DNA of 53,537 bases, from positions 1 to 53,537 of the IMG/VR virus record IMGVR_UViG_3300025459_000008; one strand, 5' to 3'. The notes under the pieces were generated by a model that saw only the letters and a program-made list of their open reading frames with translations, ran no database searches and was not told where the DNA came from. Position numbers and translations under genes: made by a program. Positions 16,024-33,818 of this stretch are shown piece after piece. The DNA is from a virus. The stretch's first letter is position 1. Every line of letters begins with the position of its first letter.

Positions 16024-16095
16024 TCACCGGGAACACCGACGATAAATTTGGTCGGCTTCCTGGAAAAACACCCGAGAACCCTCAATCGCTTCCAT
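16024..16095 (-). CDS. 23-codon leaderless frame, 5' part of the split HNH gene
   Basis: ATG 16095 lies six bases after the -10 box of the leftward promoter, with no ribosome site, so it should be translated leaderless. It encodes MEAIEGSRVFFQEADQIYRR and ends at TGA in the middle of a zinc-finger Cys pair. As first frame of the leftward operon it could act as a leader peptide if the stop is genuine. Confidence 0.5.
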   Translation of the reverse strand: MEAIEGSRVFFQEADQIYRRCSR

Positions 16096-16101
16096 GATTA
16101 T

Positions 16102-16152
16102 CTATTAGCACAGGCGAATTTCATTTGCAAGGTTTTTTTTCGCATGAACGAA
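16102..16152 (-). promoter_or_regulatory. Leftward promoter with two operators
   Basis: On the minus strand: -35 TTGCAA (16130-16125), 17-base spacer, -10 TAATAG (16107-16102) with an extended TG, and ATG six bases later. Operator 1 (16105-16118, TTCGCCTGTGCTAA on the minus strand) overlaps the -10. Operator 2 (16139-16152, TTCGCATGAACGAA) lies upstream of the -35. Operator centres are 34 bp apart. The arrangement repeats at the rightward promoter. Confidence 0.8.
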
Positions 16153-16205
16153 TTTTTTTTAGGGAGAAACTCGGGAGCGGGGATTAGTGCAGTTTAGGTC
16201 TGAAT

Positions 16206-16625
16206 TTAAGGATTTTCGCTAGTAGCTTCGAGGGGGGAAAAGAGCCTTTGGTGATAAACCTGGAGGCTTGCGGCGAGAGGTTCGATATCGCTATCGGCCA
16301 GAATGAGGGAAATTAATTTATCTATGAGGTTGTGGCGATCTTTCTTGATAGCTTCCTGCCAGCGAGAGAAGCCTAAATTTTCGGTATCCAGGCTGCAAGG
16401 CTTCTCGCCCCTGATGACATGGGCGAGTTTATAGATGGTGATGAAACTCGGCTGCTTATGGCCTTTTGCCCCTGATTTATATTCGTTGAAGGTTGTCTCA
16501 AGAACCCCTGCCGCCGCAGCCATATCTTTGTCGCTCTTGAATTTGGCGGGCCGCTTCTCCATTCCGGAAATCACTTCCTTAAAAAATTTCCAAGCGGCCG
16601 CCTCAATTTCCCTTGGAGTGTTCAT
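16206..16625 (-). CDS. CI-like repressor (XRE-type HTH)
   Basis: 139 residues; ATG 16625 is chosen for ATAGGAGATAGC and because further upstream the frame enters the operator region. Residues 32-75 (SDKDMAAAAGVLETTFNEYK, then SFITIYKLAHVI) form a lambda-repressor-like helix-turn-helix. The C-terminal part is helical and lacks a recognisable S24 autocleavage domain, so induction may differ from lambda CI. It is divergent from the Cro-like gene and is flanked on both sides by the same operators. Confidence 0.8.
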   Translation of the reverse strand: MNTPREIEAAAWKFFKEVISGMEKRPAKFKSDKDMAAAAGVLETTFNEYKSGAKGHKQPSFITIYKLAHVIRGEKPCSLDTENLGFSRWQEAIKKDRHNLIDKLISLILADSDIEPLAASLQVYHQRLFSPLEATSENP

Positions 16626-16648
16626 GCTATCTCCTATCATGGGATTTA

Positions 16649-16699
16649 TTCGCATGGGCGAAAATATGTCTTGCAAATCCGATTCGCTTGTGCTAATCA
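16649..16699 (+). promoter_or_regulatory. Rightward promoter with two operators
   Basis: -35 TTGCAA (16671-16676), 17-base spacer, -10 TAATCA (16694-16699) with extended TG, ATG seven bases later at 16707. Operators: TTCGCATGGGCGAA (16649-16662) upstream of the -35 and TTCGCTTGTGCTAA (16683-16696) over the -10, centres 34 bp apart. A repressor-maintenance promoter for the minus-strand gene probably lies in the same interval; TTGCAA is its own complement and could serve both. Confidence 0.8.
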
Positions 16700-16706
16700 T
16701 CGTTTT

Positions 16707-16922
16707 ATGACCCTCAGAGAATTTTTCACCGAGCAAGGCATCCACTACACCCCGTGGGCGAAAATGAATGGTGTCCCGGCCTCCTGTATCCATCGCCACC
16801 TTAGGGGGAAGGGCTATTTTAAGCCGGCAACCGCCCGGATAATTCATAAAGCTACTGGCTGCTTGGTTCCTTTGGTCAACTTATGCCCTGACCTGGAAGA
16901 AAGTTCGCCTGACTGTGCCTAA
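16707..16922 (+). CDS. Cro-like regulator
   Basis: 71 residues from ATG 16707. It reads LREFFTEQGIHYTPWAKMNG, then VPASCIHRHLRGKGYFKPATARIIHKATGCLV, a compact HTH like phage Cro proteins. No Shine-Dalgarno site; the ATG is seven bases from the -10, so the message is leaderless. Earlier in-frame codons fall inside the promoter and are rejected. It is the first gene of the rightward unit. Confidence 0.75.
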   Translation: MTLREFFTEQGIHYTPWAKMNGVPASCIHRHLRGKGYFKPATARIIHKATGCLVPLVNLCPDLEESSPDCA

Positions 16923-16950
16923 CATTTTCACAAACTATTTTTCATCCGTC

Positions 16951-17022
16951 TGCCAAAATATTTCAGCGGTTGCCAAAAATGCAGAAGCAGCAATATCAAG
17001 GGTTTCCCGGCCTATTTTGGCA
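16951..17022. repeat. TGCCAAAATA inverted pair with a third copy
   Basis: TGCCAAAATA at 16951-16960 and its exact reverse complement at 17013-17022, plus a near copy (TGCCAAAAAT) at 16971-16980. They lie in a 135-base gene-free stretch between the Cro-like gene and the next regulator. They may be activator sites or integrase arm sites. Confidence 0.7.
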
Positions 17023-17057
17023 AAACCCCCTTCCCCTTGCCACGGAGAAAAAGGCTG

Positions 17058-17216
17058 ATGGCTGAATTTGATTGGGATGATTTTATCTCCGATTTATGCC
17101 GGGACCTCCTGCATGGCGTGGATCTCACCCGCATTCTTGAGCGCACCAAGCTATCCGCCAACACTATCGGCTGTCACATCCTTCGCACCAAGCCCCAGAT
17201 ACCCAACTCGAAATAG
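17058..17216 (+). CDS. Stop-interrupted small regulator (in-frame UAG)
   Basis: From ATG 17058 (SD CGGAGAAAAAGG) 52 codons encode LCRDLLHGVDLTRILERTKL, LSANTIGCHIL, then UAG at 17214-17216. The same frame continues without break for 47 codons (GIYLDEAMKQRPENVRQALK, ICARFGMTAESLDIL) to TAA at 17358-17360 and looks equally protein-like. The full 99-codon reading would be a helical HTH-type protein in a CII-like position. UAG ends other genes here, so this is a nonsense mutation, a programmed readthrough, or two separate peptides. Confidence 0.6.
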   Translation: MAEFDWDDFISDLCRDLLHGVDLTRILERTKLSANTIGCHILRTKPQIPNSK

Positions 17217-17349
17217 TTGGGGATTTACCTGGATGAAGCGATGAAGCAGCGACCCGAGAATGTGCGCCAGGCCCTAAAACGGATTTGCGCTCGGTTTGGG
17301 ATGACGGCTGAGTCTCTGGATATTCTACGGAAAGAAGTTGAGAGAAATA

Positions 17350-17604
17350 ATGGGGGATAACCCCACCCCACCGCTGCTAACCGTCAAGGAGGCGGCTTTG
17401 CTCTTGAAATTATCTCCACGTTCTATATACCGAAAGGCGCGGGTACTCGGGGGCTTCTACCCTCTTGGCCTGCGCTGTTTACGATTTCGGGCGGAGGTAA
17501 TTTTCAATGCCATGCTGGCGCGAGAAGAAGGGCTGGCGGTATCGATTCCAGTACCAGGGCAAAAAATTCAACAAAGCCTGGTTTCGTACCAAGGCCCAGG
17601 CTAG
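17350..17604 (+). CDS. Excisionase/AlpA-like HTH protein
   Basis: 84 residues from ATG 17350. LLTVKEAALLLKLSPRSIYR is the classic HTH_17/excisionase start (helix, turn, 'SxRTIYR' recognition helix). It overlaps the end of the preceding frame by 11 bases and the integrase start by 98 bases, so its C-terminal 30 residues are coded out of phase with the integrase. It probably controls the direction of integrase action. Confidence 0.7.
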   Translation: MGDNPTPPLLTVKEAALLLKLSPRSIYRKARVLGGFYPLGLRCLRFRAEVIFNAMLAREEGLAVSIPVPGQKIQQSLVSYQGPG

Positions 17605-18508
17605 AGCTGCCGAAGCGGTGCACAAGGCCGAGTTAAAAAAAGCGGTGACGGCCAAGACCCGAACCGGCATGGGCTTCGAGGACCTCGCAAATGAATACCT
17701 CGACTACGGAATTAGAAGATTTGCTCCAAAGACTTACAAGTATAAATCCTATGTCTTTAAAGAATTCATTAGGGTCATGGGAGATTTACCCCTCTCCCGG
17801 ATCTCGGTGTCTGTGCTGGAGATTTATCTACGATCTCGGCGAACTAATGTCAATTATAACCGGCATAGAAAAGATCTCTGTGCGCTGCTGGTTTGGGCAT
17901 GGAAAAGGCAAAAGATTGAGCAAAATCCGTGTTTCTTCCTGGAGAAGATGCCGGAGCCTCAGTTCATCCGGCAAATACCCACGCCTGATGAGATGCGCCG
18001 CCTCCTGCTGGCGGCAGGGGAGGACCGGCCATTAATCCTCGTCCTCTATCACACCCTGGCCCGAATAGACGAGGCGCTGAGGCTCCGCTGGGAGGATGTG
18101 AATTTCCAGGAGCGCACGGTGCGACTATGGACCAGGAAGCGCAGGGATGGGGCCTGGGCTGCCGATACGCTACCCATGAATCAGGTGCTATACGACACCC
18201 TCTGGGGCCTGTGGCGGGCACGAGAGCAAGCGGAGTGGGTATTCTACAACGAGAAGACACGGACTCGGTATATGAGACGCCCCAAGTTGATGCGCACCCT
18301 TTGCCGGAGGGCGGGGATAAGATATTTCAATTTTCATTCCATTCGCGCATATGTAGCTTCTTTACTCCACGATTCAAAGAAGGTAAGCACAATAGTAATA
18401 TCCAAATTATTGCGTCACAAGAGTCTTCAAACCACCGAAATATATATAAAAAGTATGGACAAAGGGATGCAAGATGCGATAGAATTACTAGAGAAAATTC
18501 AGTATTAA
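17507..18508 (+). CDS. int: Tyrosine integrase
   Basis: 333 residues, SD GGAGGTAATTTTC. N-terminal arm-binding region (YRFQYQGKKFNKAWFRTKAQ), a SAM-like core-binding domain (about 55-150), and a catalytic domain with Arg in LARIDEALRLRW (about residue 186), HSIRAY (His277, Arg280), a further His in LLRHKSLQTT and Tyr in EIYIKS (about 312). All catalytic positions are present. It follows the excisionase-like gene. No attP was defined; a complete tRNA-Pro 0.6 kb downstream is a candidate. Confidence 0.9.
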   Translation: MPCWREKKGWRYRFQYQGKKFNKAWFRTKAQARAAEAVHKAELKKAVTAKTRTGMGFEDLANEYLDYGIRRFAPKTYKYKSYVFKEFIRVMGDLPLSRISVSVLEIYLRSRRTNVNYNRHRKDLCALLVWAWKRQKIEQNPCFFLEKMPEPQFIRQIPTPDEMRRLLLAAGEDRPLILVLYHTLARIDEALRLRWEDVNFQERTVRLWTRKRRDGAWAADTLPMNQVLYDTLWGLWRAREQAEWVFYNEKTRTRYMRRPKLMRTLCRRAGIRYFNFHSIRAYVASLLHDSKKVSTIVISKLLRHKSLQTTEIYIKSMDKGMQDAIELLEKIQY

Positions 18509-18515
18509 GATTGAC

Positions 18516-18550
18516 GAGCCGAGGGGGTGCGCTAACACCGCCCCCGGCTC
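18516..18550. terminator. GC-rich hairpin after the integrase
   Basis: GAGCCG-A-GGGGG pairs with CCCCC-GGCTC around a short loop, eight bases after the integrase stop. There is no T-tract, so it is not a standard intrinsic terminator. It may attenuate transcription or mark an attachment region. Confidence 0.5.
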
Positions 18551-18582
18551 TCCCCACAACCAACCTGCAAGGAGGTTCGGCC

Positions 18583-19137
18583 ATGAGTGATTCTCAATTT
18601 AGCAGACTTGGCGAAAATTGGAAAGCAATTTCTGGATTTCCTGGATATGAGGTTTCGGACCAGGGACGGGTTAGGTCTTACTTAAAATCCAGGGGAAGAA
18701 ACTTAGGAACCTATATTAGCACGACCGCGCAGAAAATCTTAAAACCTCATCCTGATCGTTTTAACCGATTAGCTTTGTATTTACGAAAAGATGGAAAAAC
18801 CTATCGAATTTTTATTCATAGGTTAGTACTGATCGCCTTTGTTAGTCCTTGTCCTTTGGGCATGGAAACCTGTCACAATGACGGCAATCCTGCCAACAAT
18901 AATTTAACAAACCTACGATGGGATACAAGGCGTAATAATGCCCAAGATACGATAATTCATGGAACTGTTTTGGCCGGAAGTAAAAACCCTCGGGCCAAAC
19001 TTAACGAATCTCAAGTTATCCAAATCAGAGAAATGGCGGCTAATGGAATTGCCAACAAAAGACTTGCGGAAATGTTTTCTGTTTATCCAGAACATATTAG
19101 CGGGATTATTCATCGCAAATATTGGACGCATATATAG
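18583..19137 (+). CDS. NUMOD4-HNH homing endonuclease
   Basis: 184 residues from ATG 18583, SD AAGGAGGTTCGG. Starts WKAISGFPGYEVSDQGRVRS (NUMOD4), then HRLVLIAF, ETCHNDGNPANNNLTNLRW with HNH residues, and a C-terminal helix-turn-helix (VIQIREMAANGIANKRLAEM). Free-standing HNH genes of this kind spread between phages. It ends two bases before the tRNA-Pro gene. Confidence 0.85.
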   Translation: MSDSQFSRLGENWKAISGFPGYEVSDQGRVRSYLKSRGRNLGTYISTTAQKILKPHPDRFNRLALYLRKDGKTYRIFIHRLVLIAFVSPCPLGMETCHNDGNPANNNLTNLRWDTRRNNAQDTIIHGTVLAGSKNPRAKLNESQVIQIREMAANGIANKRLAEMFSVYPEHISGIIHRKYWTHI

Positions 19138-19138
19138 A

Positions 19139-19215
19139 TGGTCGGGGCGGGCGGATTCGGACCGCCGACTTCCTGGTCCCAGGCCAGGCGCGCTTCCAGA
19201 CTGCGCTACGCCCCG
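19139..19215 (-). tRNA. tRNA-Pro (UGG), C33 variant
   Basis: Perfect cloverleaf: acceptor CGGGGCG/CGCCCCG, D stem GCGC/GCGC, anticodon stem CCTGG/CCAGG, T stem GGCGG/CCGCC, encoded CCA. Loop CCTGGGA gives anticodon UGG with C at position 33 instead of U. T loop is TCCGAAT (55 is C). It lies between an HNH gene and small ORFs, near the integrase, and could double as an attachment site. Confidence 0.85.
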
Positions 19216-19281
19216 ACATTTAAATTTACCAAAAAACGGAGCAGGCTCCCATGAAAATTCCCTTGAAGTCAGGAAAAGTCG

Positions 19282-19446
19282 ATGAATAGTGCAAGAGGTC
19301 CGTCTCCCAAGGCAGTCCCTCCATCCCTAAACCCCTTTAACGACGCATGGTTGACGTGCCCTTGCTGTCTGCAAACGACAGAAAGTGGCGCGGTTTTCGG
19401 TTTAGGCTCCCACAACGGTTCCCATGGAAAAAAGGGGTTGACCTGA
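19282..19446 (+). CDS. Small zinc-type protein
   Basis: 54 codons from ATG 19282. Polar Pro/Ser start, then AWLTCPCCLQTTESGAVFGLG. The stop overlaps the ATG of the next gene (TGATG), so the two are coupled. Ribosome site is weak (AGGAAAAGTCG). Unknown. Confidence 0.5.
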   Translation: MNSARGPSPKAVPPSLNPFNDAWLTCPCCLQTTESGAVFGLGSHNGSHGKKGLT

Positions 19447-20105
19447 TGCAGATTTTAATTGGGGATACCTCTGAAAAAAGAATTAAACGCATCTGCCAAG
19501 AAACAGGCATGGGTCGTATGGTGGCGCAGAACTGGCCTGACCTTTATGAGGGGGAACCGTGGGGTTTTGACAACGGGGCTTGGGGTTTCAAAGACCTGCC
19601 AGGGGGTTTTGACGAGAAAACCTTTGTCAACCGTTTACAAAAGGCAGTTGGAAAATATAAGCGGCCTTATCTTGCTGTTTGCCCTGACATTGTGGCGGGG
19701 GGCATGAAGTCGCTTGAGTTCTCGATGAAATGGTTTTATCAACTCCCGGAATGGCCTTGGTATCTAGCAGTGCAGGACGGAATGGAAGTCGTGGCGGTTA
19801 TGGAGGTGATTGACCAGTTTGCAGGTATCTTTTTGGGCGGGACCGACGAATACAAGAGATATGCTGGGTATTGGTGTCAACTGGCCCATCACTGCGGGAA
19901 GAAGTTTCACTATGGCCGAGCTGGCACTCTGAACAAGTTGGCTCATGCTATCATGGTAAAGGCGGATTCTCTTGATTCTGCTTTTCCGTTGTGGACTAAG
20001 AATAGGCTTTTTAGTTTTATTCAGGCTATTTCGCAACAGCACTTTGACTTGACCATATTTGCCCCGCATCCTGAAAGAGGTCAAGGGTCTCTAGTTCAAA
20101 TTTAG
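19446..20105 (+). CDS. TGT/DpdA-like enzyme (putative deazaguanine transglycosylase)
   Basis: 219 residues from ATG 19446. The segments resemble the TIM-barrel of tRNA-guanine transglycosylase relatives found in phages: YLAVCPDIV with Asp, WYLAVQDGM, GIFLGGTDEYKRYA, KKFHYGRAGTLNKL and KADSLDSAF, in the order seen in DpdA-type proteins ('FlGGs.eWK...H.GRvns.rRl..a...G.DS.D'). The expected role is exchange of guanine for a 7-deazaguanine in DNA or RNA. No deazaguanine synthesis genes (QueC/D/E) are visible in the window, so the base would come from the host. Family call is moderate. Confidence 0.55.
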   Translation: MQILIGDTSEKRIKRICQETGMGRMVAQNWPDLYEGEPWGFDNGAWGFKDLPGGFDEKTFVNRLQKAVGKYKRPYLAVCPDIVAGGMKSLEFSMKWFYQLPEWPWYLAVQDGMEVVAVMEVIDQFAGIFLGGTDEYKRYAGYWCQLAHHCGKKFHYGRAGTLNKLAHAIMVKADSLDSAFPLWTKNRLFSFIQAISQQHFDLTIFAPHPERGQGSLVQI

Positions 20106-20129
20106 TGTCTCTCGCCGGCCTATGTGGCC

Positions 20130-20192
20130 ATGAGCGAGAAGCAATTCGGGAAGGTTCTGGCCCATTACGGCGCGATGATGAGGGAGAACTGA
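20130..20192 (+). pseudogene. 20-codon C-terminal remnant
   Basis: The frame SPAYVAMSEKQFGKVLAHYG, then MMREN-stop, reads like the end of a larger protein. It opens only after the stop of the previous gene, with ATG 20130 as sole start and no clear site. It probably remains after a gene replacement. Confidence 0.3.
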
Positions 20193-20193
20193 G

Positions 20194-20502
20194 ATGACAC
20201 AAAAAGAGTTAATTGAATTGGCCATTGCTTATAGATGGGAAAAACTTACGGCTGTGAATACGGGAGGACAATTCACAATACTAAGAAAAGGGAAATACGA
20301 GTTATGGCTTAAAGGCGATGTCTGTAATATTTTGGAAAACGATAGTTATTCACATGGTATGGGCAGGGGTATGATGTATTTATCAAAAGCAAAAGTCCAT
20401 CCAAACCCTTGGGTGATTGGACTTTTCGGCCCCATTGTTGGGCGCTGGTTTTCTTTGAAAGCTAATAAATTTCTTAGCTATGACCCAAGATTTAGCCTAT
20501 AA
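20194..20502 (+). CDS. Hypothetical protein
   Basis: 102 residues, SD GAGGGAGAACTGAG. Mixed strand and helix (ELIELAIAYRWEKL, GQFTILRKGKYELWLKGDV) with an aromatic C-terminus. No family recognised. Confidence 0.65.
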   Translation: MTQKELIELAIAYRWEKLTAVNTGGQFTILRKGKYELWLKGDVCNILENDSYSHGMGRGMMYLSKAKVHPNPWVIGLFGPIVGRWFSLKANKFLSYDPRFSL

Positions 20503-20683
20503 ATGGTTTTGCCCGATCCTCCAGGTCCGCACCCTGCGCCATCCCTGCAAGGCGCGGCTGGCGGCGCTTAGGTTTAAAAGGTCGGTGGCCTCGAATGCGG
20601 CGCTTTATTTCAACAACTACCAATGTCTGGAATGCAAAGGGAAGAAGCTGGTGAGGCTTAAAGGAGATACCAATGGTCATTGA
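20480..20683 (+). CDS. Small basic Cys protein
   Basis: 67 residues from ATG 20480, overlapping the previous gene by 23 bases. Cys at WFCPIL and HPCKARLAALRF, then YQCLECKGKK: a probable zinc site with a basic helix. Unknown. Confidence 0.55.
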   Translation: MTQDLAYKWFCPILQVRTLRHPCKARLAALRFKRSVASNAALYFNNYQCLECKGKKLVRLKGDTNGH

Positions 20684-20873
20684 AATTCTTGGCGAGGCAG
20701 GGCGGAAGGTTAAATTCTGCAAGGCCGGTACTTGTCTTGGATATGAACAAACTATGCTGGCAATTTTTAAGGGCGATGAAATGCTGGCTTCGGTTATCCT
20801 GCCCATTTCTGAAATGATTGAAGGATTCCAGAAAATCCAATTCAATGAAAATCCTGAGCATGAAAAAACTTAA
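20673..20873 (+). CDS. Small hypothetical protein
   Basis: 66 residues, SD AAAGGAGATACC. Beta-rich start (VIEILGEAGRKVKFC), then a helix with acidic tail. Unknown. Confidence 0.6.
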   Translation: MVIEILGEAGRKVKFCKAGTCLGYEQTMLAIFKGDEMLASVILPISEMIEGFQKIQFNENPEHEKT

Positions 20874-21096
20874 CGGCCCGGGTGATCTGCGCGCCGACTT
20901 TTCAGCGGAGTTTGGCGAACCGCCTTGGCTGGTTATCCGGGGTATGAAACTATTCAAGAGAAACACTGGCCTCTGGCCCACCATGCCCGGCGTCAAATAT
21001 CAAGGCTGCTGGGAATATCATGTCAACATCATTAACCCGGAAACCTTCAACGAACTAGCCCGGCTGGCTCAAGAGTTCTATGATAATTTACCATAA
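20860..21096 (+). CDS. SpoVG-like small protein (tentative)
   Basis: 78 residues from ATG 20860 (ATG 20845 also possible). Pattern PPWLVIRGMKLFKRNTGLWP, TMPGVKYQGCWEYHVNIINP, then a C-terminal helix. 'I.g.r.......g.w..MP..k..g.w...v...n' recalls SpoVG-like nucleic-acid-binding proteins of phages. Tentative. Confidence 0.5.
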   Translation: MKKLNGPGDLRADFSAEFGEPPWLVIRGMKLFKRNTGLWPTMPGVKYQGCWEYHVNIINPETFNELARLAQEFYDNLP

Positions 21097-21300
21097 TTTA
21101 CCAATGTTATCAAAATTAGTTAAGATTACCCATTTTTACTAAATGACAAATTTGTTACCGAGATTACCGGGTTTTGACCATTTGTTACCATGTCGCGGAT
21201 AACTTGTTACCATCTAGGTTTGGCATACTCGGTGCAATTATATAACCGGGCGCGCGCACGCGGTTAACCGCACGGTTAATCCACGCAGTTAATATATTTT
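21081..21300. other. Putative replication origin: TTACC iterons and palindromes
   Basis: About 240 bases without a gene before the helicase-type gene. TTGTTACC occurs at 21152, 21182 and 21204, AGATTACC at 21123 and 21161, and AATTTACC at about 21085 and 21095. These are followed by a GCGC-rich block and the 12-bp palindrome GCGGTTAACCGC (21260-21271) with two further GTTAA copies, then AT-rich DNA. Repeated short sites next to a replication gene are typical of phage origins. The assignment is inferred. Confidence 0.6.
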
Positions 21301-21339
21301 AAATGCAAAAGCGATAAAGGCAAAACCAAGGACTTTATA

Positions 21340-22689
21340 ATGGTAAAAACCCAGCAAAAGCCCATAGAATCTAAAGAAGCTGAACAAACCGTGTTGGGTA
21401 GTCTGCTTATAGACCCCCAAAAAATTGCAGAGGTACTAGAAAAAATCAGAGCAGAGGATTTTTATTATTCCAATCATCAACTGATATTCAAAGCCATGAC
21501 CGATTTAGAAGAATCCGGGGCACCCATTGATTACCGATCTGTATGCGTGGCCTTAACCGAATCAGGGAAATTAGTCGAAGCTGGAGGCATGGATTTTTTG
21601 GTGAAGCTCTCAGAAGAGGTTGGTCATGCCGCTAATCTTTCCCACTTTGTCAATATAGTACATGAAAAATCTACATTAAGGCGATTAGCCGAGATTAGCA
21701 GCAAAATATATCACGCCTGCCATGAAGGGCGGAAACCCGATGAATTAATTATAAAGGCTCAGGAAAAATTAGCGGAGTTGTCAGCCGGAGCAGGCTGTAA
21801 AAGCGGCAATCTAACCGCGAAGGTTAGAGACTGGATTAAAATATCGCCTGGACAATTTGAAGTGCGGCAGATTTATAACGATTTGGCGATTATTGCGCCT
21901 GGGGATAAAAAGACGGTTCTTATGGCTCTTGGCCGCGCTGAAAAAGAAGATTTAATTGACAAAATTCCTGGCAAACGTGGTCATTACCGGATTAAGGAAA
22001 CTAATGTAAATAAAATAGATTTTCTTCATGCCGATCCTTCCAACTGGCTGGACCTCAAATTGCCGTTGGAGATTGATAAATATGTAAGACTGTTTCCCTC
22101 TAATATTGTAATAATTGCAGGGGAGAAAGGGATAGGCAAAACCTCATTTTGTTTAGATATGACACGGATGAATAAAACAAGATTCCCTGTAAATTATTTA
22201 TCAAGCGAAATGGGACCAGAAGAATTACGTAACCGTTTAGAGAGATTTGAATTGCCGATAGAAGAATGGACGGTAGTCAATTTTAGGGCAAGAAGAGATA
22301 ATTTTGCTGACCTGATAGAGCCTGATTCTATAAACGTAATTGATTATTTGGAAAAATACGATCAATTTTGGACTATCGCTTCGGATATTTGTGGGGTATT
22401 CGATAAATTAAATAAAGGGATATGTTTTATAGCTATCCAGAAAGATACGGGAGCGGAATCAGGCCGAGGAGGTATGTTTACTAGGGAAAAATGTAGGCTG
22501 CATTTGGCGCTATCTAGGAAAAAGGACCCGATTAAAGGAGTAGTCAATGAGGCCAAGATAGATGATGTGAAGGTCTTCGCCATGCCCGGGTATAACCCGA
22601 ATGGCCTTGTTTTAAAATATAAGTTAATCCAAGGCGCAAGATTTTCACTGGCAGAAACAGGTATTAGCAATGGAAAGGAAGGGTGGTAA
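21340..22689 (+). CDS. Replication protein: DnaB N-domain + winged helix + ATPase
   Basis: 449 residues. Residues 8-150 match the DnaB N-terminal domain (EAEQTVLGSLLIDPQKIAEV, EDFYYSNHQLIFKAM). Residues about 158-224 are a winged helix (VRDWIKISPGQFEVRQIYND, GKRGHYRI). Residues about 245-430 are a RecA-like ATPase with Walker A GEKGIGKTSF (261-270) and NYLSSEMG. The winged-helix/ATPase half resembles a phage replication family seen alone elsewhere. No full DnaB motor motifs are visible, so it may be an initiator or loader. It follows the iteron region, its likely binding site. Confidence 0.8.
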   Translation: MVKTQQKPIESKEAEQTVLGSLLIDPQKIAEVLEKIRAEDFYYSNHQLIFKAMTDLEESGAPIDYRSVCVALTESGKLVEAGGMDFLVKLSEEVGHAANLSHFVNIVHEKSTLRRLAEISSKIYHACHEGRKPDELIIKAQEKLAELSAGAGCKSGNLTAKVRDWIKISPGQFEVRQIYNDLAIIAPGDKKTVLMALGRAEKEDLIDKIPGKRGHYRIKETNVNKIDFLHADPSNWLDLKLPLEIDKYVRLFPSNIVIIAGEKGIGKTSFCLDMTRMNKTRFPVNYLSSEMGPEELRNRLERFELPIEEWTVVNFRARRDNFADLIEPDSINVIDYLEKYDQFWTIASDICGVFDKLNKGICFIAIQKDTGAESGRGGMFTREKCRLHLALSRKKDPIKGVVNEAKIDDVKVFAMPGYNPNGLVLKYKLIQGARFSLAETGISNGKEGW

Positions 22690-27506: not shown

Positions 27507-27613
27507 ATATTCTCTCCTTTAAAATGCGATGTAAACAAATTTAATTTAAAATGATAACGATGATTTGTCCACTACATTTGTCCTTTTTGGGGGTGTTTAG
27601 TGACAAGAGGGGG

Positions 27614-27643: not shown

Positions 27644-27684
27644 ATGGCTATGGATGGAAGGGTCATCTGACGGATGGGATTCGA

Positions 27685-27757
27685 TGCGGGAAGCCAAGGT
27701 GTGCCGTCAGGTCTCATAAGCCAGATTGTGGGGGTTCGATTCCCTCTCCCGCTACCA
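27685..27757 (+). tRNA. tRNA-Met (CAU)-like, shortened D arm
   Basis: Acceptor GCGGGA/TCCCGC, T stem GGGGG/CCCTC with canonical loop TTCGATT, anticodon loop CTCATAA and encoded CCA are clear. Abnormal points: positions 1 and 72 are both T (mismatch), the anticodon stem has an A-A pair, and only 16 bases lie between acceptor and anticodon stems, with no good D stem. The 1-72 mismatch is an initiator-type trait. Either a phage-adapted initiator-like tRNA or a decaying gene. Confidence 0.65.
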
Positions 27758-27805
27758 AACTATTTGCTACCCCGCCTCGAAAGGGGCGGGGATGGATTTA
27801 AGACT

Positions 27806-28045
27806 ATGAATGATCGAACGACAACAGGCGAAACCAGACGAGCCTCTGTAGCTCAAAAATCATTGACTTTTAAGGAAGTATTGTCGTGTTTTAAACAAGC
27901 AAATAAAGTAATTAATAAAAATGGCGATGTTGACATTGAGGTTTGGATAGGAACCAAAATGTATAGAATTGTGAGTGTAGGCCAATTTAATTTCGTACCT
28001 ACGGTTACTTTAACATTGGCCGATGAACCAGAGCTTGCATTATAA
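27806..28045 (+). CDS. Small hypothetical protein between tRNAs
   Basis: 79 residues from ATG 27806; upstream frame overlaps the tRNA and is rejected. Reads LTFKEVLSCFKQANKVINKN, DVDIEVWIGTKMYRIVSVGQ: helix then strands, like a small sandwich. Ends two bases before tRNA-Pro. Unknown. Confidence 0.6.
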   Translation: MNDRTTTGETRRASVAQKSLTFKEVLSCFKQANKVINKNGDVDIEVWIGTKMYRIVSVGQFNFVPTVTLTLADEPELAL

Positions 28046-28047
28046 AC

Positions 28048-28123
28048 CGGGGTGTAGCTCAGTCAGCGGAGCGCCGGGCCTGGGACCCGGAGGTCGCAGG
28101 AGCGAAGCCTGCCGCCCCGACCA
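28048..28123 (+). tRNA. tRNA-Pro (UGG), abnormal elbow
   Basis: Acceptor CGGGGTG/CGCCCCG (one G-U), D stem GCTC/GAGC, anticodon stem CCGGG/CCCGG, T stem GCAGG/CCTGC, encoded CCA. Anticodon loop CCTGGGA is identical to that of the tRNA-Pro at 19139-19215, again with C33. The D loop (AGTCAGCG) lacks the GG pair and the T loop is AGCGAAG, so the bases that normally form the elbow contacts are changed together. Confidence 0.75.
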
Positions 28124-28164
28124 TATTGCCAAAATTATTGCCAATTTAACAAAAAGTTGAGTTT

Positions 28165-28425
28165 ATGCATTTAGTTAGCTTGCCAAAATGTGTGTCAAAA
28201 ATTGCAACTCGCTCCCATTGGCGAGATGGAGGGCAATGGGTGGTGGGACGGAGCGGTGAACTACCGCGCCCCCGTGTTCTCATTGGCACGTTAAACAACA
28301 ATGACCGGTACTTGGCCCGGGTAAGGCCCGGCTGTGATCCCGAGGTCGATAGGCATTCTGTGGCTGCAGCTCCAGTTTGCTTCGGGACGTTTTTTAAAGA
28401 GTCCGCGGAGGATGAAAAACAATGA
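28165..28425 (+). CDS. Possible small protein
   Basis: 86-codon frame from ATG 28165 without a strong site. Its TGA overlaps the ATG of the HNH gene (ATGA), a point in favour. Composition (Arg/Pro/Val) is not very protein-like, and the DNA has several inverted segments (GGCCCGGGTAAGGCC near 28315). Uncertain. Confidence 0.35.
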   Translation: MHLVSLPKCVSKIATRSHWRDGGQWVVGRSGELPRPRVLIGTLNNNDRYLARVRPGCDPEVDRHSVAAAPVCFGTFFKESAEDEKQ

Positions 28426-28958
28426 TACCTTTATGCGCTTGCGGTTGTGGAGAGCAAACAAATATAATCTCCAAAACTGACAATAGCAGAGGGAGAATAA
28501 AAGGACAATATTATAAATATGTTTGGGGTCATAATGTAGGGAAAGGAGAAAATGCCCCAACCTGGCGCGGTGGAATTGCTATAAAAAATGGATATTTATC
28601 TGTATTTATTCCAGATCATGCACGGGCGGATAAGGACGGATACATAGCGAAACATATTATACTTGCCGAGAAAGCCCTTGGCAAACCTCTTCCCTTAAAA
28701 GCCGAAGTTCATCATTATAACGGAACTAAAAATAGTGGGCCGCTTGTGCTTTGCCAGGATAGAAAGTATCATATGCTACTGCATCAACGTATGCGAGCTT
28801 TGAAAGCCTGTGGAAACGCTTCTTGGCTAAAGTGCTGGATTTGTAAAGAGTATGATGATCCGGGAAAATTATATTTACCAGAAAAAGCAAGTCCTCGACA
28901 TCCTGATTGCATGAAAGAATATTGCAATGGCCGATCGGGTCCCAGCGGGAGGGACTAA
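28422..28958 (+). CDS. HNH endonuclease
   Basis: 178 residues, SD GCGGAGGATG. CACGCGEQT start, GENAPTWRGGI, DKDGYIAKHIILAEKALG, KAEVHHYNGTKN (HNH core), LVLCQDRKYHMLLHQR, and a late zinc pair (CWIC, then HPDC). Layout of intron- or free-standing HNH homing endonucleases. Fifth HNH gene of the window. Confidence 0.85.
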   Translation: MIPLCACGCGEQTNIISKTDNSRGRIKGQYYKYVWGHNVGKGENAPTWRGGIAIKNGYLSVFIPDHARADKDGYIAKHIILAEKALGKPLPLKAEVHHYNGTKNSGPLVLCQDRKYHMLLHQRMRALKACGNASWLKCWICKEYDDPGKLYLPEKASPRHPDCMKEYCNGRSGPSGRD

Positions 28959-29062
28959 GGGAATGTCAAGGCGGTTGGCTTATGGCCCCCGATACCTTGG
29001 CGGAGCCCAGACCTGCGCTGCCCGCGATGCGGCCGCATCTGGCGTAGGGATTTTTGATGCCC

Positions 29063-29124
29063 CGGGAAGCTGTCGGGCCACATTTCAGGCCCTCAAGTAC
29101 TGGGCAGCTTCCCGTATTTTAAAA
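29063..29124 (+). terminator. Closed stem module 1 with TATTTTAAAA tail
   Basis: CGGGAAGCTG (29063-29072) pairs perfectly with CAGCTTCCCG (29105-29114), and GGGCC/GGCCC makes an inner hairpin. TATTTTAAAA follows at once. It may end rightward transcription from the tRNA/HNH unit. Confidence 0.6.
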
Positions 29125-29286
29125 CAGTCTCTTAGAGCGGCCCCGGTACGCTGATTGGCGGATGAATCGTAGCCGAAGCAGTTCAAGGCTTGATTCAGAT
29201 AGTATCTGGCTTTCATAGCAGCCGGAAGTGATCGGGAGATTCATCTGAGTATATCGGCGGGGAGTTTCCGCTTGTCAGCTTTTCTG

Positions 29287-29365
29287 AGGGACTTGGTGCT
29301 GGCAAGATGCCTCACTGATAATTTGCTGGGTTTTTTAAAAGCCTAGCAAGTCCCTTATTTTAAAA
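29287..29365 (+). terminator. Closed stem module 2 with TATTTTAAAA tail
   Basis: AGGGACTTG (29287-29295) pairs perfectly with CAAGTCCCT (29347-29355), followed at 29356 by the same TATTTTAAAA decamer as module 1. The stems differ but the architecture and tail are the same. Confidence 0.55.
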
Positions 29366-29445
29366 ACTATGATTGATATTATAGCAGACACCTTCCTGCT
29401 CGCTGCCTTCCTGGTAGCACTCCTAAAACTCCATTTGCAGATAGG

Positions 29446-29475
29446 TTGACTTTTGCCAGCCTTTCGAGTTAATCT
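29446..29475 (+). promoter_or_regulatory. Promoter of terminase small subunit, leaderless
   Basis: -35 TTGACT (29446-29451), 18-base spacer, -10 TAATCT (29470-29475), ATG at 29482 six bases on. No GGAG-type site precedes the ATG. Confidence 0.6.
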
Positions 29476-29481
29476 CAAACC

Positions 29482-30015
29482 ATGACCCCTGAAGAGAAAA
29501 GCGCCCAATGCCGTCAAGCCGTTCTTAGTGCCATTAACAAGTTGACCCCAGAGGAACGTAAAAAGAGGATGGAAAGAGCACTCGCCGCTCGTTGGGGACC
29601 AAAGGACGAGACAGAGAAGGAAGAAGATAAAGAGCTAAAACAGTTAGAAAAACTGCAAAGGGCGGCTAGCTCGATAAAAGATAAAAAGCATGAAGGAAGT
29701 GGGCCAGATCCGGCGAAAGTGTGTCGTGCCGTCGGCTTGGGAGAGATTGACGTTCTTAAGGGTGTTAAGACTCTAGCCGAAAAGTCTAAGTCAGATGTAG
29801 TGCGCCTGCGAGCCTATGAGCTGGCCTGCAAGGTTTTACGCATGATCAGGGAGGATACCCAGCAGAATGAGGGGGTTAGGATCATCATTCAGGCCCTTGA
29901 GGGCTCCCAGCAAGTCAACATCACCCCACCGGGCCAGACCCTACTCCAGGAGCCAGCCTCTTACAATCACCCTCAGCCCTCATCGCCTGGCAAGCCGATC
30001 CAGATAGTCAAGTGA
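29482..30015 (+). CDS. terS: Terminase small subunit (probable)
   Basis: 177 residues. Helical N-terminal region with PEERKKRMERALAARWGPKD, then a C-terminal region KTLAEKSKSDVVRLRAYELA, CKVLRM, the 'SDsVRlrAaelL.k' helix pair typical of small terminase subunits that bind packaging sites. Pro/Gln-rich tail. It stands 2.3 kb upstream of the large subunit, separated by regulators. Start is leaderless. Confidence 0.65.
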   Translation: MTPEEKSAQCRQAVLSAINKLTPEERKKRMERALAARWGPKDETEKEEDKELKQLEKLQRAASSIKDKKHEGSGPDPAKVCRAVGLGEIDVLKGVKTLAEKSKSDVVRLRAYELACKVLRMIREDTQQNEGVRIIIQALEGSQQVNITPPGQTLLQEPASYNHPQPSSPGKPIQIVK

Positions 30016-30347
30016 CGTTGTAATGCAGGCCAGCCGCAGTCTTGCTATACCATATCTTGATAGCACCGCACTTGATAATATTTCTGATTATATCTATCTC
30101 AATCATATCAACTACTTAGCATATTTGCTAACGTCTAATATCATTCATTATGTAAACTAACACTTGTGAAAAGGACATACAACCCCGGCCTGCCTTACTG
30201 ACCTGGCATCGCGGCCCTGATGCTGCCTCTACTCGCCTCAAATTTCCTTCCTGGAAACGCGAACCCCGGGAGCGGCAGGTACCCCCCCCTGGGTAGCAAT
30301 GTTTCCCCCGAGAAATATTCACATTTTCCATCCCGGTATTATTATGC
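30016..30347. other. AT-rich gene-free stretch with small palindromes
   Basis: Contains TTAGCA-TATT-TGCTAA (palindrome near 30114-30133), a TGCTAT/ATAGCA pair near 30043-30066, and repeated ATATC/GATAT words. Then a GC-rich part (30180-30310) with no good frame. Position just after terS fits a packaging (pac/cos) or operator region; no direct proof. Confidence 0.5.
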
Positions 30348-30377
30348 TTGACAACCTTTTCTGAAATCCTATATATT
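30348..30377 (+). promoter_or_regulatory. Consensus promoter, leaderless
   Basis: TTGACA (30348-30353), 18-base spacer, TATATT (30372-30377), ATG seven bases later at 30385, without a ribosome site. Confidence 0.75.
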
Positions 30378-30384
30378 CCAAATC

Positions 30385-30780
30385 ATGACAGCTTGGGGTT
30401 TTAAAATTAAAAGGCAACAAAGTAATGATAAATCTTCTTCTATTTTAGAAGCGCCTTCTATAGACATAGAGAAAGAGAAGTTTAAAAGAACAATTGTCCA
30501 TCTTGAGGATTTAAACAGCGACCTTCATAAAGACAATTTTGATTTACGGAACCAGGTTATTGCTCAAAAGAAGCAATTAATTCAATTACAGCATCAACTC
30601 AGCATGGCGCAGCGGTATCCGGGATATTTAGGGAAGATTCCACCAGAAGCAGACCTCTTGGAATTTATTGAAAGGCACCTGAAGTTTCTGATTTTTGCTT
30701 CACATCCAGACCGGAATCCTGGGAACGATGAAGCAGCCGAGGTCACCAGAAAGTTGATAAAATTTAAAGAGGGGGAATAA
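30385..30780 (+). CDS. Coiled-coil protein with J-domain-like C-terminus
   Basis: 131 residues. Residues 30-75 form a coiled coil (FKRTIVHLEDLNSDLHKDNF, LIQLQHQLSM). Residues about 88-131 read LLEFIERHLKFLIFASHPDR, NPGNDEAAEVTRKLIKF: HPD motif (107-109) with the 'NPGN.eAae.t.kl' helix of a J domain. It would contact a host DnaK. Expressed from its own leaderless promoter. Confidence 0.7.
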   Translation: MTAWGFKIKRQQSNDKSSSILEAPSIDIEKEKFKRTIVHLEDLNSDLHKDNFDLRNQVIAQKKQLIQLQHQLSMAQRYPGYLGKIPPEADLLEFIERHLKFLIFASHPDRNPGNDEAAEVTRKLIKFKEGE

Positions 30781-30838
30781 TTCCATCCCGGCACAAAACT
30801 GCTTGATCTTTAATAAAAGGTGTTATAATGTAGTAGTC

Positions 30839-30904
30839 ATGGAGGATAAAGAGCAAGGAAGACATCACCCGTATAGCTCAGTCGGGATAGAGGATATGAC
30901 ATGA
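30839..30904 (+). CDS. 21-codon leaderless frame upstream of XRE gene
   Basis: TATAAT at 30824-30829 lies nine bases before ATG 30839. The frame (MEDKEQGRHHPYSSVGIEDM) ends in ATGA overlap with the XRE gene. The same DNA (30866-30900) reads as the 5' half of a tRNA: ACCCGTATAGCTCAGTCGGG, ATAGAGGATATGAC, very like tRNA-Arg up to the anticodon stem, with no 3' half. Confidence 0.4.
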   Translation: MEDKEQGRHHPYSSVGIEDMT

Positions 30905-31098
30905 CCACCCTTGGCGCCCGCATCCGTTCCCTTCGGGAATCCCGGGGCTTCTCCCGACCAGCGCTGGCGCAGATGTCCGGGGTATCGGAGCGGGCGATCC
31001 AGAACCTTGAATTGGGTCAGGCTGATCCTCGGGTGGGGACTTTGGAGAAGATAGCCGTGGCGTTGGGGGTGAAGGTGGAGGAGTTGGTGAAGAAGTAA
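30901..31098 (+). CDS. XRE-family regulator
   Basis: 65 residues. LGARIRSLRESRGFSRPALA, SGVSERAIQNLELGQADPRV, TLEKIAVALGV: complete HTH_3 domain and nothing more. GAGG of the tRNA-like piece may be its ribosome site. Probably controls the late or packaging promoters around it. Confidence 0.8.
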   Translation: MTTLGARIRSLRESRGFSRPALAQMSGVSERAIQNLELGQADPRVGTLEKIAVALGVKVEELVKK

Positions 31099-31216
31099 TG
31101 ATGCGGGTCATAAGGGAATTGAAGTAACTCCTACTGATTCCATTTTCGATGTAAAGCACAAGATTATGAAAGCCAAACTGATTCCTTTGGAGGAATTATC
31201 GCATGAGAACCCCTGA
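31091..31216 (+). pseudogene. Start-less coding remnant
   Basis: The frame SNDAGHKGIEVTPTDSIFDV, KHKIMKAKLIPLEELSHENP reads like a real protein end but has no usable start, being open only after a TGA inside the XRE gene, one phase away. Either a frameshifted C-terminal extension of the XRE protein or the tail of a lost gene. Confidence 0.4.
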
Positions 31217-31243
31217 TGGGTTGGCACCCCTTAAAATGCCTGA

Positions 31244-31627
31244 ATGAAGTTATGGATAATCGTGCTTCTAACAATAATCTTCTACCCAGCGACCGGACAA
31301 TGCCAACCCGCACCGACAGTAATATGCACGGCCTACTGCCTCAAGGGCCACACAACATCGGGGCCAGCGACAGCCGAGATTCACAGGAAAGGCGGCTGCA
31401 TAGCCCTGAGCCGGAAGCTGGCGCAGGACCTGGGCCTGAAATGCGGTTCAGGGAAATACGACTACAGGTTTGGGGTTCGTGTAGAGGTCCTAACGGTAGG
31501 CACCTTCATCTTTGCCGACTTAATGCCGCCGAAGTGGAAGCACTATCGGGTGGATATTTACTTCCCCACTCTGCACGAATGCCATGTTTTCGGGGTTAAG
31601 CGATGCCAGGTGACGGTGGTTAAATGA
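31244..31627 (+). CDS. Secreted 3D-domain protein
   Basis: 127 residues. N-terminal signal peptide (LWIIVLLTIIFYPATGQCQ), then TAYCLKGHTTSGPATA and the 3D signature (VGTFIFADL, VDIYFPTLHECHVFG). 3D/double-psi barrel proteins bind or cut glycan strands. It may be an exported cell-wall enzyme expressed by the prophage or in lysis. Coupled by ATGA to the next gene. Confidence 0.75.
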   Translation: MKLWIIVLLTIIFYPATGQCQPAPTVICTAYCLKGHTTSGPATAEIHRKGGCIALSRKLAQDLGLKCGSGKYDYRFGVRVEVLTVGTFIFADLMPPKWKHYRVDIYFPTLHECHVFGVKRCQVTVVK

Positions 31628-31872
31628 ACGAAGTCTGGCTAATTGAGCAACGCATTTGCCGGCCTGGGGAAGAACCCACCGATTGGGTTGCTATTCTGGA
31701 TCAGGTTTTCTTTGAGCCAAGCATGGCCAGAGTCGAGGAAATATACCAGCCATTTACTGCTGAGAGCGGCATTGTTTGTGAATACCGGGTTATTCCCTAC
31801 CGCCGTGTCGAACCAAAATCCCTGACGCTCAGGGAACAGTCGAGGAAGGAGGGGTGGAATCCTAACCCCTGA
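31624..31872 (+). CDS. Small hypothetical protein
   Basis: 82 residues, ATGA overlap with the 3D-domain gene. Reads VWLIEQRICRPGEEPTDWVA, a pattern of small phage proteins ('W.iE.r....g....Wva'). Converges with the next minus gene. Unknown. Confidence 0.6.
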   Translation: MNEVWLIEQRICRPGEEPTDWVAILDQVFFEPSMARVEEIYQPFTAESGIVCEYRVIPYRRVEPKSLTLREQSRKEGWNPNP

Positions 31873-32053
31873 TTTCTTCTTCGGGTAGCAGGCTCCTGAT
31901 CTTCTCAAAATTTAACTCAAATCCATGTGCTATATCTAAATCAGGAATCGAAACAAAAATAAATAACCTGCTGTAATCTGGCCCCAAGGATTTTCCGGTT
32001 CCCATATCCAGCCACGATCCTCCGCCGGGACCACGCTTAATTAAGATATCCAT
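31862..32053 (-). CDS. Small hypothetical protein, partner of AbrB-like gene
   Basis: 63 residues from ATG 32053 (SD AGGAGGAATGAG inside the end of the upstream gene). MDILIKRGPGGGSWLDMGTG, then strands. It directly follows the AbrB-like gene like a toxin-antitoxin partner, but has no known toxin motif. Confidence 0.5.
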   Translation of the reverse strand: MDILIKRGPGGGSWLDMGTGKSLGPDYSRLFIFVSIPDLDIAHGFELNFEKIRSLLPEEEIRG

Positions 32054-32054
32054 C

Positions 32055-32261
32055 TCATTCCTCCTCCACCGGCCTGATAAAAATCTCATTCCGGTCTAAA
32101 TACAAAGCCATCTTTAATCCTTGTATAAATCCCCGTTTTTCGCACCAGGGTTTAGGTAAGCGGATAAAATACCCCCCTCCTCTTTTTTGCACCCGCCTGA
32201 ACATTACCGGCCTACATTTGCCAGACCCTCTTACATTTTTATTCCAAGTCCCTTTAGTCAT
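32055..32261 (-). CDS. AbrB/MazE-like DNA-binding protein
   Basis: 68 residues from ATG 32261 (SD AACAGGAGCC). MFRRVQKRGGGYFIRLPKPW, CEKRGFIQGLKMALYLDRNE, IFIRP: a swapped-hairpin AbrB domain with 'lPK.W....g...G'. Divergent from terL; its promoter lies next to that of terL, so it may regulate packaging genes. Confidence 0.7.
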   Translation of the reverse strand: MTKGTWNKNVRGSGKCRPVMFRRVQKRGGGYFIRLPKPWCEKRGFIQGLKMALYLDRNEIFIRPVEEE

Positions 32262-32283
32262 ATTGCGGCTCCTGTTTTTCTCA

Positions 32284-32348
32284 TTATTAACCCCTATTTT
32301 GCTAAGTGTCAAGCCCTCTTGATTTTTATTCAGTTATCATCTTACTAA
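32284..32348. promoter_or_regulatory. Back-to-back promoters for AbrB-like gene and terL
   Basis: Minus: TTGACA (32312-32307), 17 bases, TAATAA (32289-32284). Plus: TTGATT (32319-32324), 18 bases, TACTAA (32343-32348), ATG of terL six bases later, without a ribosome site. The two -35 boxes are only six bases apart, so firing would be mutually exclusive. Confidence 0.65.
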
Positions 32349-32354
32349 TGAGAT

Positions 32355-33818
32355 ATGATAGATGTCCAGTGGTTATTTGGGCCAACCTCTCTGGCCTACA
32401 TTCATTCCACCGCCCAAATCAATGCCCTGTTTGGACCACCGGGGTCGCATAAGACTTTTGCCTCTATCCAGGCAATCCTTGCTCACCAGCAACAATGCGG
32501 TACCAGTATCCGCATTGCCATCATCCGGGACACCTTAGAGAACATCCGTATTTCTGTAGTGCCTTCTTTTTTCGAGTATTTTGAAGTCGCCCCCGGCCAG
32601 GTCCATTTTAAGAATGAGAACAAGGAATTGCGGATTGATGTCGCTGGGGGGCTGAAGATTGAGGCTGACCTGTTTGGGTGCAACGACCCCGCCGACCTTC
32701 AGCGTCTTCAGGGTGCTTCTTCCTGGTCCTTGATCTGGATTAACGATCCAGCCCCCATGACTGAGCGGCAAAACGCCGGGGTGCCGGAAGTGGTTTATGA
32801 CCATGCCGCTTATCGTTCTACTCGCAGGAGCGGCGGGCCAAGTCGGCTCCAGATTGACATGAATTATGCCGAGGAGACCCACTGGACTTATCGCCGGCTA
32901 ATCCTGGAACCTGATATCGACCCCGAGACTCCCCTGATCGTCAAACGGGTATTTCATGTGCCCTATGCTGAGATTCAAGTTCTTAATGAAGAAGCCATGC
33001 AGATGGCCAGGAGAGTCTTTAGCCATGATGAGACGGCCAGGGCCAGGTATGTGGAGGGCCGCTTTGCCGAATTTAAGCCAGGCAAGAACGTGGCCCCGGG
33101 CTACCGGCGGGCTATTCATCTTTGCCCCAGCGTTATTGAGCCAGCCGCTGGTTTAGAATGTTTTGCTTTCTGCGATGGCTGGCACAATCCCACCTGCGTC
33201 TTGGGACAGATAACCAAATCCAACCGCTTGGTCTATATCGACACCGTGCGGGTGGAGGGTTCGGACATCTCTACTCTCCTGGAAACTCAAGTTGGTCCTC
33301 TTCTTGGGAACCCCAAATGGAAAGACAAGTGGCGGTCCTGGCGGATCGGCGGGGACCGAACCATGGCGACCCCCGACCAGGGAAACATCAACCACAAATC
33401 CTCTGAGGATGTGGAGAAGTTCTTCTCTCAGTTCGGTCATGGAGTCTATAAACCTCGTTTTGAGGGTGGACCTGTCACCTGGCGGGAGATTGAGCGCAGC
33501 TTCAATTATTGGCTGGTACATTCCAACCAGAACAATGACCCGATGATTTATTTGTCGGCCAGCAACCATCTGCTGGATAAAGGCTTAAACGGAGCTTGGC
33601 ATTTTAAGATCGACAACTCGGGCAATATTGTGGGAACAGAACCCGTGAAGGACGAGATCAGCCATGTCATGGACGCTTGGGCTAATTCCGTGTGTGTGCT
33701 GCTGGGAAGCCAAATTGTACGGGTGAGCAAGGGAGCAATGAAGCAGGTGACCACCAAGATGCGGAACCGGGCTAAAAGTTACGGGTCAACTGGACTGGCT
33801 GCCAGGGGAGGCGTGTAG
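32355..33818 (+). CDS. terL: Terminase large subunit
   Basis: 487 residues. Walker A GPPGSHKT (27-34), Walker B-like LIWIND (about 127-132), and a C-terminal RNase H-like nuclease half beginning FCDGWHNPTC (about 270) with later GGDRTMATPD and KDEISHVMDAWAN. It powers DNA packaging at the portal and cuts the concatemer. Start lies close to its promoter (leaderless). Confidence 0.85.
   Translation: MIDVQWLFGPTSLAYIHSTAQINALFGPPGSHKTFASIQAILAHQQQCGTSIRIAIIRDTLENIRISVVPSFFEYFEVAPGQVHFKNENKELRIDVAGGLKIEADLFGCNDPADLQRLQGASSWSLIWINDPAPMTERQNAGVPEVVYDHAAYRSTRRSGGPSRLQIDMNYAEETHWTYRRLILEPDIDPETPLIVKRVFHVPYAEIQVLNEEAMQMARRVFSHDETARARYVEGRFAEFKPGKNVAPGYRRAIHLCPSVIEPAAGLECFAFCDGWHNPTCVLGQITKSNRLVYIDTVRVEGSDISTLLETQVGPLLGNPKWKDKWRSWRIGGDRTMATPDQGNINHKSSEDVEKFFSQFGHGVYKPRFEGGPVTWREIERSFNYWLVHSNQNNDPMIYLSASNHLLDKGLNGAWHFKIDNSGNIVGTEPVKDEISHVMDAWANSVCVLLGSQIVRVSKGAMKQVTTKMRNRAKSYGSTGLAARGGV

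Follow-up and report, generated by a model that had tools for sequence, protein, structure and literature searches.

The DNA considered here, called the window in the following, is a virus record of 53,537 bases (IMGVR_UViG_3300025459_000008), and the question is which of its genes are leaderless, that is, have a promoter so close that the transcript would start at or almost at the start codon. The gene that carries most of the argument is terL, at position 32355, which encodes a large terminase-like protein. Since an integrase (at 17507), a DnaB-like helicase (at 21340) and a portal-like protein (at 34564) are also encoded, the window represents a tailed, probably temperate phage. A DNA-level phage search with the window gave no match.

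The terL locus and its relatives

The terL gene (32355-33818, plus strand) encodes 487 amino acids and is a leaderless candidate with comparative support. Its promoter (32319-32348, plus strand) is composed of TTGATT (32319-32324) and TACTAA (32343-32348) with 18 nt in between, and ends 6 nt before the ATG. Facing terL is the gene of a small AbrB/MazE-like regulator (32055-32261, minus strand), which is led by a Shine-Dalgarno (SD) site (AGGAG, -6.6; all SD energies are in kcal/mol) and has a strong divergent promoter at 32312-32283 on the minus strand (TTGACA-18-AATAAT, 11 of 12 consensus positions).

Neither product gave a direct family match in profile searches, which for the terL product included Pfam and PHROG. 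The terminase-like label comes from alignments and from a homologue, L030 (genome G002), which is 43% identical to the protein of the window and matches Pfam Terminase_3 (PF04466, E 3.7e-10) and the terminase large subunit family phrog_2 (E 1.3e-12). The product of 32055-32261 is matched by hhalign, with a probability of 98.9%, to the divergent genes of terL relatives, one of which passes PF04014.

Relatives of the terL product were found in 45 viral loci, copies of the window phage counted in, and in metagenome-assembled genomes. A start was assigned to 38 of the 44 terL rows, 37 by a rule that was set after the upstream regions had been viewed and one (L012) by hand; the remaining six (L066, L069, L093, L097, L106, and L107) have no start within the rule. 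Removal of three near-copies (L071, L085, and L109) left 35 distinct starts. The upstream alignment omits L057-L060, which are copies of the window phage and of L005, as well as upstream stretches that are exact duplicates, and L096, which has no N-terminal match. For L067, L064, L105, and L078 a downstream ATG, picked after the promoter had been seen, was used when the starts were labeled.

The position of the -35 box recurs among the relatives. The 120 nt upstream of the 35 starts contain 16 TTGAC boxes, and in 11 of these the first base lies 35-40 nt from the start codon. Without L012 the count is 10 of 15, for which a binomial test gives 3.5e-10 on the assumption that the rows are independent, which they are not. 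The best -35 match is found at 36 nt in both the window and L005, the proteins of which are 68% identical. Fourteen of the 35 starts were labeled leaderless-like, two of them (L067 and L078) as a result of the downstream ATG chosen, while nine were labeled SD and 12 neither. The labels are clustered on the tree, with 10 changes against a mean of 16.7 when shuffled; the leaderless label still needs seven changes and does not form a single clean clade.

The genomic context also differs between the labels. By eye, a facing AbrB/MazE-like gene, as a rule SD-led, is present in 10 of the 14 leaderless-like rows, while a same-strand open reading frame (ORF) ends within 8 nt of the start in seven of the nine SD rows. 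In a deep group of seven rows (five SD and two neither) a same-strand ORF stops between 1 nt ahead of and 20 nt beyond the start used. Judged from these alignments, the promoter arrangement appears to be old, as relatives with approximately 37-69% protein identity often share a -35 box at 35-40 nt and lack an SD site. The best supported reading for 32355 is that its mRNA would have either no leader or a leader of 2-5 nt.

Some further features were seen among the relatives. In seven rows (L012, L064, L067, L068, L072, L073, and L105) the place of the -10 box is taken by TATCG followed by T, C, or G instead of TATAAT, and several of these have a pair of facing -35 boxes arranged as an inverted repeat (TGTCAA...TTGACA) that might serve the AbrB-like protein as operator. 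In L061 a promoter-like stretch (2974-3003) aims at an in-frame ATG that precedes the called start by 27 nt and is cut off from it by a TGA after five codons. L032 (1108-3543; G074 contig 77) encodes a TerL of 811 amino acids with a long insert that, from the translation, looks like an intein. Near terL in L030 lies an ArsR/MarR-like regulator gene (4860-5234; G002 contig 121) with TTGACA-17-TAATAT, 6 nt, and an ATG without an SD site; the gene caller favoured a later start at 4932 (SD -4.2).

Other promoter-ATG arrangements in the window

The sequence-only reading had pointed to six ATG codons placed directly behind a promoter, and this geometry is present at all six. With the gap defined as the number of nucleotides between the end of the -10 box and the start codon, the best promoters score 5.5 bits at 16095 on the minus strand (gap 6), 7.3 at 16707 (gap 6), 10.0 at 29482 (gap 6), 14.3 at 30385 (gap 7), 10.8 at 30839 (gap 9), and 5.0 at 32355 (gap 6); the bits are calculated from approximate sigma-70 weights. 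The -10 boxes are poor at 16707, 16095, and 32355. At 16707, 29482, 30385, and 32355 the -10 box is found about 5-10 nt before the start and there is no SD site (energies of -1.4, -2.5, +3.5, and +0.8, respectively), and the last three are each the first possible start of their ORF. The proposal that operon-first genes are leaderless at these six sites thereby holds for four likely genes, while the ATG at 16095 opens an ORF of 23 codons and that at 30839 one of only 21. A leaderless gene is unsupported at these two sites, where a leaderless leader peptide is conceivable.

Two of the six sites belong to the putative immunity region. Its centre is a repressor-like gene (16206-16625, minus strand), SD-led (AGGAG, -7.3) and named from its position and its flanking operators; no family match was found, and other profile searches gave only matches far below the cut-off. 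The gene lies between the arms of a 40-nt inverted repeat (80% identity). The left arm (16104-16143) contains a PL-like promoter and an operator at 16105-16118, with a second operator at 16139-16152, and the right arm (16658-16697) a PR-like promoter and an operator at 16683-16696, with a second one at 16649-16662. The operator pattern TTCGCNTGNGCNAA, with at most one mismatch, has four matches in the 53.5 kb, all within 600 bp and two on each side of the repressor-like gene. Shuffled sequences gave a mean of 1.09 matches, and four or more in 3 of 100; as the pattern was read from its own sites the count is descriptive, and it is the clustering that matters.

Outward from the right arm, the promoter at 16671-16700 (plus strand; TTGCAA-18-AATCAT, or an extended -10, TGTGCTAAT) ends 6 nt before a Cro-like gene (16707-16922, plus strand) of 71 amino acids. 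This gene has a weak match, below the cut-off, to the BcepMu gp16 family (E 5e-4). An in-frame TTG upstream of it, at 16671, falls within the -35 box. Outward from the left arm, the promoter at 16102-16130 (minus strand; TTGCAA-17-TAATAG) ends 6 nt before the ATG at 16095, from which the 23-codon ORF, one in-frame TGA, and an HNH endonuclease ORF (15981-15577; phrog_2340) follow, together spanning 15577-16095 on the minus strand. The two ATGs lie 8 (16095) and 9 nt (16707) after the GCTAAT of the shared promoter half. The duplicated operator-promoter around the repressor-like gene points to transcriptional control of both 16095 and 16707. On the window sequence, 16707 is likely leaderless.

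The TGA between the 23-codon and the HNH ORF replaces the expected second cysteine of a CxxC motif (cf. RRCTKC in L012's HNH protein), and may represent a nonsense change or recoding. Selenocysteine was considered for this codon and rejected, as no SECIS-like fold is seen: shuffled sequences fold as well as the 60-nt stretch that begins at the TGA (z +0.82; 158 of 200 as good).

The gene at 29482 (29482-30015, plus strand) is preceded by a promoter at 29446-29475 (plus strand; TTGACT-18-TAATCT). From its position it is perhaps a small terminase gene; a TerS-like label was dropped, as 29482 has no PHROG or Pfam match, and its three relatives have no PHROG terminase match either. Relatives of its C-terminal part are found in 3 of 15 records. 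A match in L011 covers only 38 N-terminal residues, and the gap-6 promoter of L011 was left uncounted. The gene at 30385 (30385-30780, plus strand), which has a C-terminal HPD (J-domain-like) motif, lies behind a promoter at 30348-30377 (plus strand; TTGACA-18-TATATT). It has a match in none of the 15 records. Forty-two C-terminal residues of its product align with a DnaJ-like ORF, the start of which is not comparable. On the window sequence, both 29482 and 30385 are likely leaderless.

The promoter at 30803-30829 (plus strand; TTGATC-15-TATAAT), in front of the ATG at 30839, is better read as that of an HTH_3 regulator gene (30901-31098, plus strand; SD GAGG, -5.8), whose mRNA would then probably carry a leader of approximately 60 nt. 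The 21-codon ORF (30839-30904, plus strand), a candidate only, overlaps the start of this gene in an ATGA. Just before 30901, at 30868-30892, the stretch CCCGTATAGCTCAGTCGGGATAGAG is reminiscent of the D-arm (5') half of a tRNA; ARAGORN makes no call there. Elsewhere in the window two tRNA-Pro genes, 19139-19215 (minus strand) and 28048-28123 (plus strand), share the anticodon tgg and are about 78% identical, and a 45-nt direct repeat (12531-12575 and 12926-12970; about 96% identical, spacing 395 nt), noticed through L007, is present.

Weighing the candidate leaderless starts

Taken together the sequences probably describe a patchwork in which a minority of the promoters of the window are leaderless or nearly so; the one of terL is old and usually faces an AbrB/MazE-like gene. 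Four starts with a promoter at such a gap, among the about eight SD-less first starts of the window (a hand count), correspond to a binomial probability of about 1.6e-4. When the dinucleotides were shuffled six times, a promoter of at least 5 bits stood at a gap of 5-9 before 236 of 5877 ATGs (4.0%); it reached 7 bits for 63 of them and 9 bits for 23.

First genes were also counted in 13 phage records and phage-bearing contigs using a crude, self-made gene caller, which was used for the window and the bacterial genomes as well. Forty-six of the 215 first genes in the phages have no SD site; among these, a promoter of 6 bits stands at gap 5-9 in 10, compared to 3-8 at other gaps. In G415, of which all but the last 1,696 bases were examined, a gene with a weak match to a terminase small subunit family (phrog_51, E 5e-4, no single stretch passing) has TTGACA-17-TATAAT, a gap of 5 and an SD energy of -3.2, while the gap of its terL is 11. 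An HTH_3 gene in G409 has a gap of 6.

Several observations weigh against the patchwork or against single members of it. Five of the 10 phage matches are terL starts, and outside terL there is no excess. Among the 35 terL rows, 12 carry neither signal under the rule used, and the gaps of 9-11 in L068, L072, L073, L076, L079, and L080 correspond to a leader of 2-5 nt and not to none. L061, which is 63% identical, lacks the promoter at its called start, and L062, L065, and L079 have SD energies from -5.8 to -6.6. The terL promoter of the window reaches a score that 4% of random ATGs also reach, and better-scoring promoter sites are found 90-109 nt upstream. Some room is further left for translational coupling of terL, because in the window and in L005 it is preceded, at a distance of 3-6 nt, by the end of a same-strand ORF of 54-55 codons that runs antisense to the regulator gene. 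For 16707, as for the repressor-like gene, the sole relative retrieved comes from a copy of the window phage; the relatives of 30385, three copies of the window phage and the partial DnaJ-like match, are uninformative; and 29482 has a later in-frame ATG, at 29569, that is preceded by a weak SD site (-5.6), as well as relatives with SD-led candidate starts. A promoter scan over all ORF ATGs of the window shows no accumulation at gap 5-9. The automatic count lists five first genes of the window as SD-less, and only one of them (29482) attains 6 bits; the score of 32355 is lower, and 30385 and 16707 are absent from the listed matches.

The phage might simply mirror a host in which leaderless initiation is common. 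Its host is likely, or perhaps, a member of the Desulfobacterota: TerL relatives are found in metagenome-assembled genomes titled Thermodesulfobacteriota and Deltaproteobacteria (2 loci), in 4 of 395 Thermodesulfobacteriota genomes (centre G001 included), and, within one class, in 5 of 29 genomes, of which three had turned up before. Leaderless genes were reported in 8 of 33 delta-proteobacterial genomes, where they made up on average 15.8% of the genes (Zheng et al., 2011; PMC3160421), which would fit such a host habit. Against it, four sampled bacterial genomes with TerL relatives (1.14 Mb, 976 called genes) have no leaderless excess at gap 5-9; 391 of their 598 first genes have an SD site, and 19 of the 207 without one have a 6-bit promoter at gap 5-9, compared to 17-30 at other gaps, in counts made with the crude caller and the approximate sigma-70 weights. 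A separate count of this kind in one of the four found a promoter at gap 4-7 for 3 of 46 first genes without an SD site and for 0 of 96 with one. A host habit is on balance doubtful.

Chance proximity of ATGs to promoter-like hexamers, with the true transcripts starting elsewhere and SD-less translation from longer leaders, is unlikely. It agrees with the lack of enrichment over all ORF ATGs and the low scores at 32355 and 16095, and with a count of 35 promoter-like sites in 19 kb, compared to 28.3 (sd 6.5) in shuffled sequences. It does not account for the -35 distance that recurs in the terL relatives, nor for the two unrelated ORFs at 16095 and 16707 being nearly equidistant from their duplicated promoters.

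That operon-first genes are leaderless as a whole class with one shared translational control (70S, IF2, stress), as originally suggested, is not supported and seems very improbable, since the four likely genes with gaps of 6-7 and the leaderless-like starts at several genes of G415 stand against SD sites in 26 of the 31 machine-called first genes of the window, against six first genes behind promoters of at least 9 bits of which two are leaderless and three (8113, 9291, and 30901) have an SD site, and against the SD-led regulator facing terL, repressor-like gene and HTH gene at 30901.

Known leaderless systems and a possible late switch

Leaderless phage genes are of a known kind. The lambda cI gene had been put forward as a known single case, which is contradicted by the prophage PaaR2, by the Thermus phage phiYS40 and by promoters predicted in cluster O mycobacteriophages. 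For phiYS40 a review reports that most middle and late transcripts are leaderless, together with a change in IF2/IF3 (PMC3594737). The window resembles it in having several leaderless candidates, late ones included; in phiYS40 they are the majority of middle and late transcripts, while here most first genes are SD-led and a minority of the promoters are predicted to be of this type. In the cluster O phages (Corndog and its kin) the predicted promoters place +1 on the first base of the gene, and two of these promoters are divergent (PMC4351075). A predicted +1 at the start codon and divergent promoters are shared with the window, and both cases rest on prediction; the host, a mycobacterium, and the genes are different.

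Both lambda cI and PaaR2 have a leaderless gene at the immunity switch (PMC8630535), and there it is the repressor that is leaderless. The window has a repressor-like gene flanked by putative operators that overlap two outward early promoters, and its immunity region resembles lambda PL/PR with the two modes of initiation swapped: an SD site leads the repressor-like gene, and the leaderless candidate is the Cro-like gene that faces it.

The signal found in the window is the one described by Zheng et al. (2011; PMC3160421) for leaderless bacterial genes, in which the -10 box precedes the start by about 10 bp. They also describe an archaeon in which proximal genes are leaderless and distal genes are SD-led; in the present case that contrast is seen inside a single phage protein family, TerL. 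Many leaderless mRNAs are reported for Bradyrhizobium (PMC4842269), and for Caulobacter 375, or 9.6% of the coding sequences, with a translation efficiency similar to that of leadered mRNAs (PMC4117421). Because the Caulobacter mRNAs are translated like leadered ones, a general tie between leaderless starts and stress is disfavoured. No leaderless terminase gene was found in the papers surveyed, mostly as titles and abstracts, which is no proof of absence, and the limited open-licence literature searched contained no report of a recurrent promoter arrangement at terL opposite an AbrB-like gene.

In the patchwork proposed here, a minority of promoters would lie so near to their genes that the mRNA begins at or within approximately 5 nt of the start codon. 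From the predicted PR/PL pair the transcripts of the Cro-like gene at 16707 and of the ORF at 16095 would be leaderless and the repressor SD-led; 29482 and 30385 share the same promoter-to-start layout. Control would be exerted by transcription, with the repressor acting at PR/PL and perhaps the AbrB-like protein at the late terL promoter, and the mRNAs would be translated via the ordinary leaderless route. A bolder and rather improbable extension is that selection in a Desulfobacterota phage lineage keeps leaderless starts at decision points, i.e., at the Cro-like gene and the terL operon, with the facing regulators SD-led. If so, a cell that changes between SD-led and leaderless translation would push the phage, at each divergent promoter, away from the regulator side and toward the lytic one.

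The findings imply a warning that gene-start calls which rely on SD sites can fail in such phages. Comparison within the one protein family suggests that an important late gene has no leader when it is promoter-proximal and is SD-led when it lies behind another gene, in phages with relatives that sit in mostly SD-using bacteria. The intergenic region between terL and the AbrB-like gene is a candidate for a late switch and, if confirmed, the family would offer a simple natural system for studying why leaderless starts persist.

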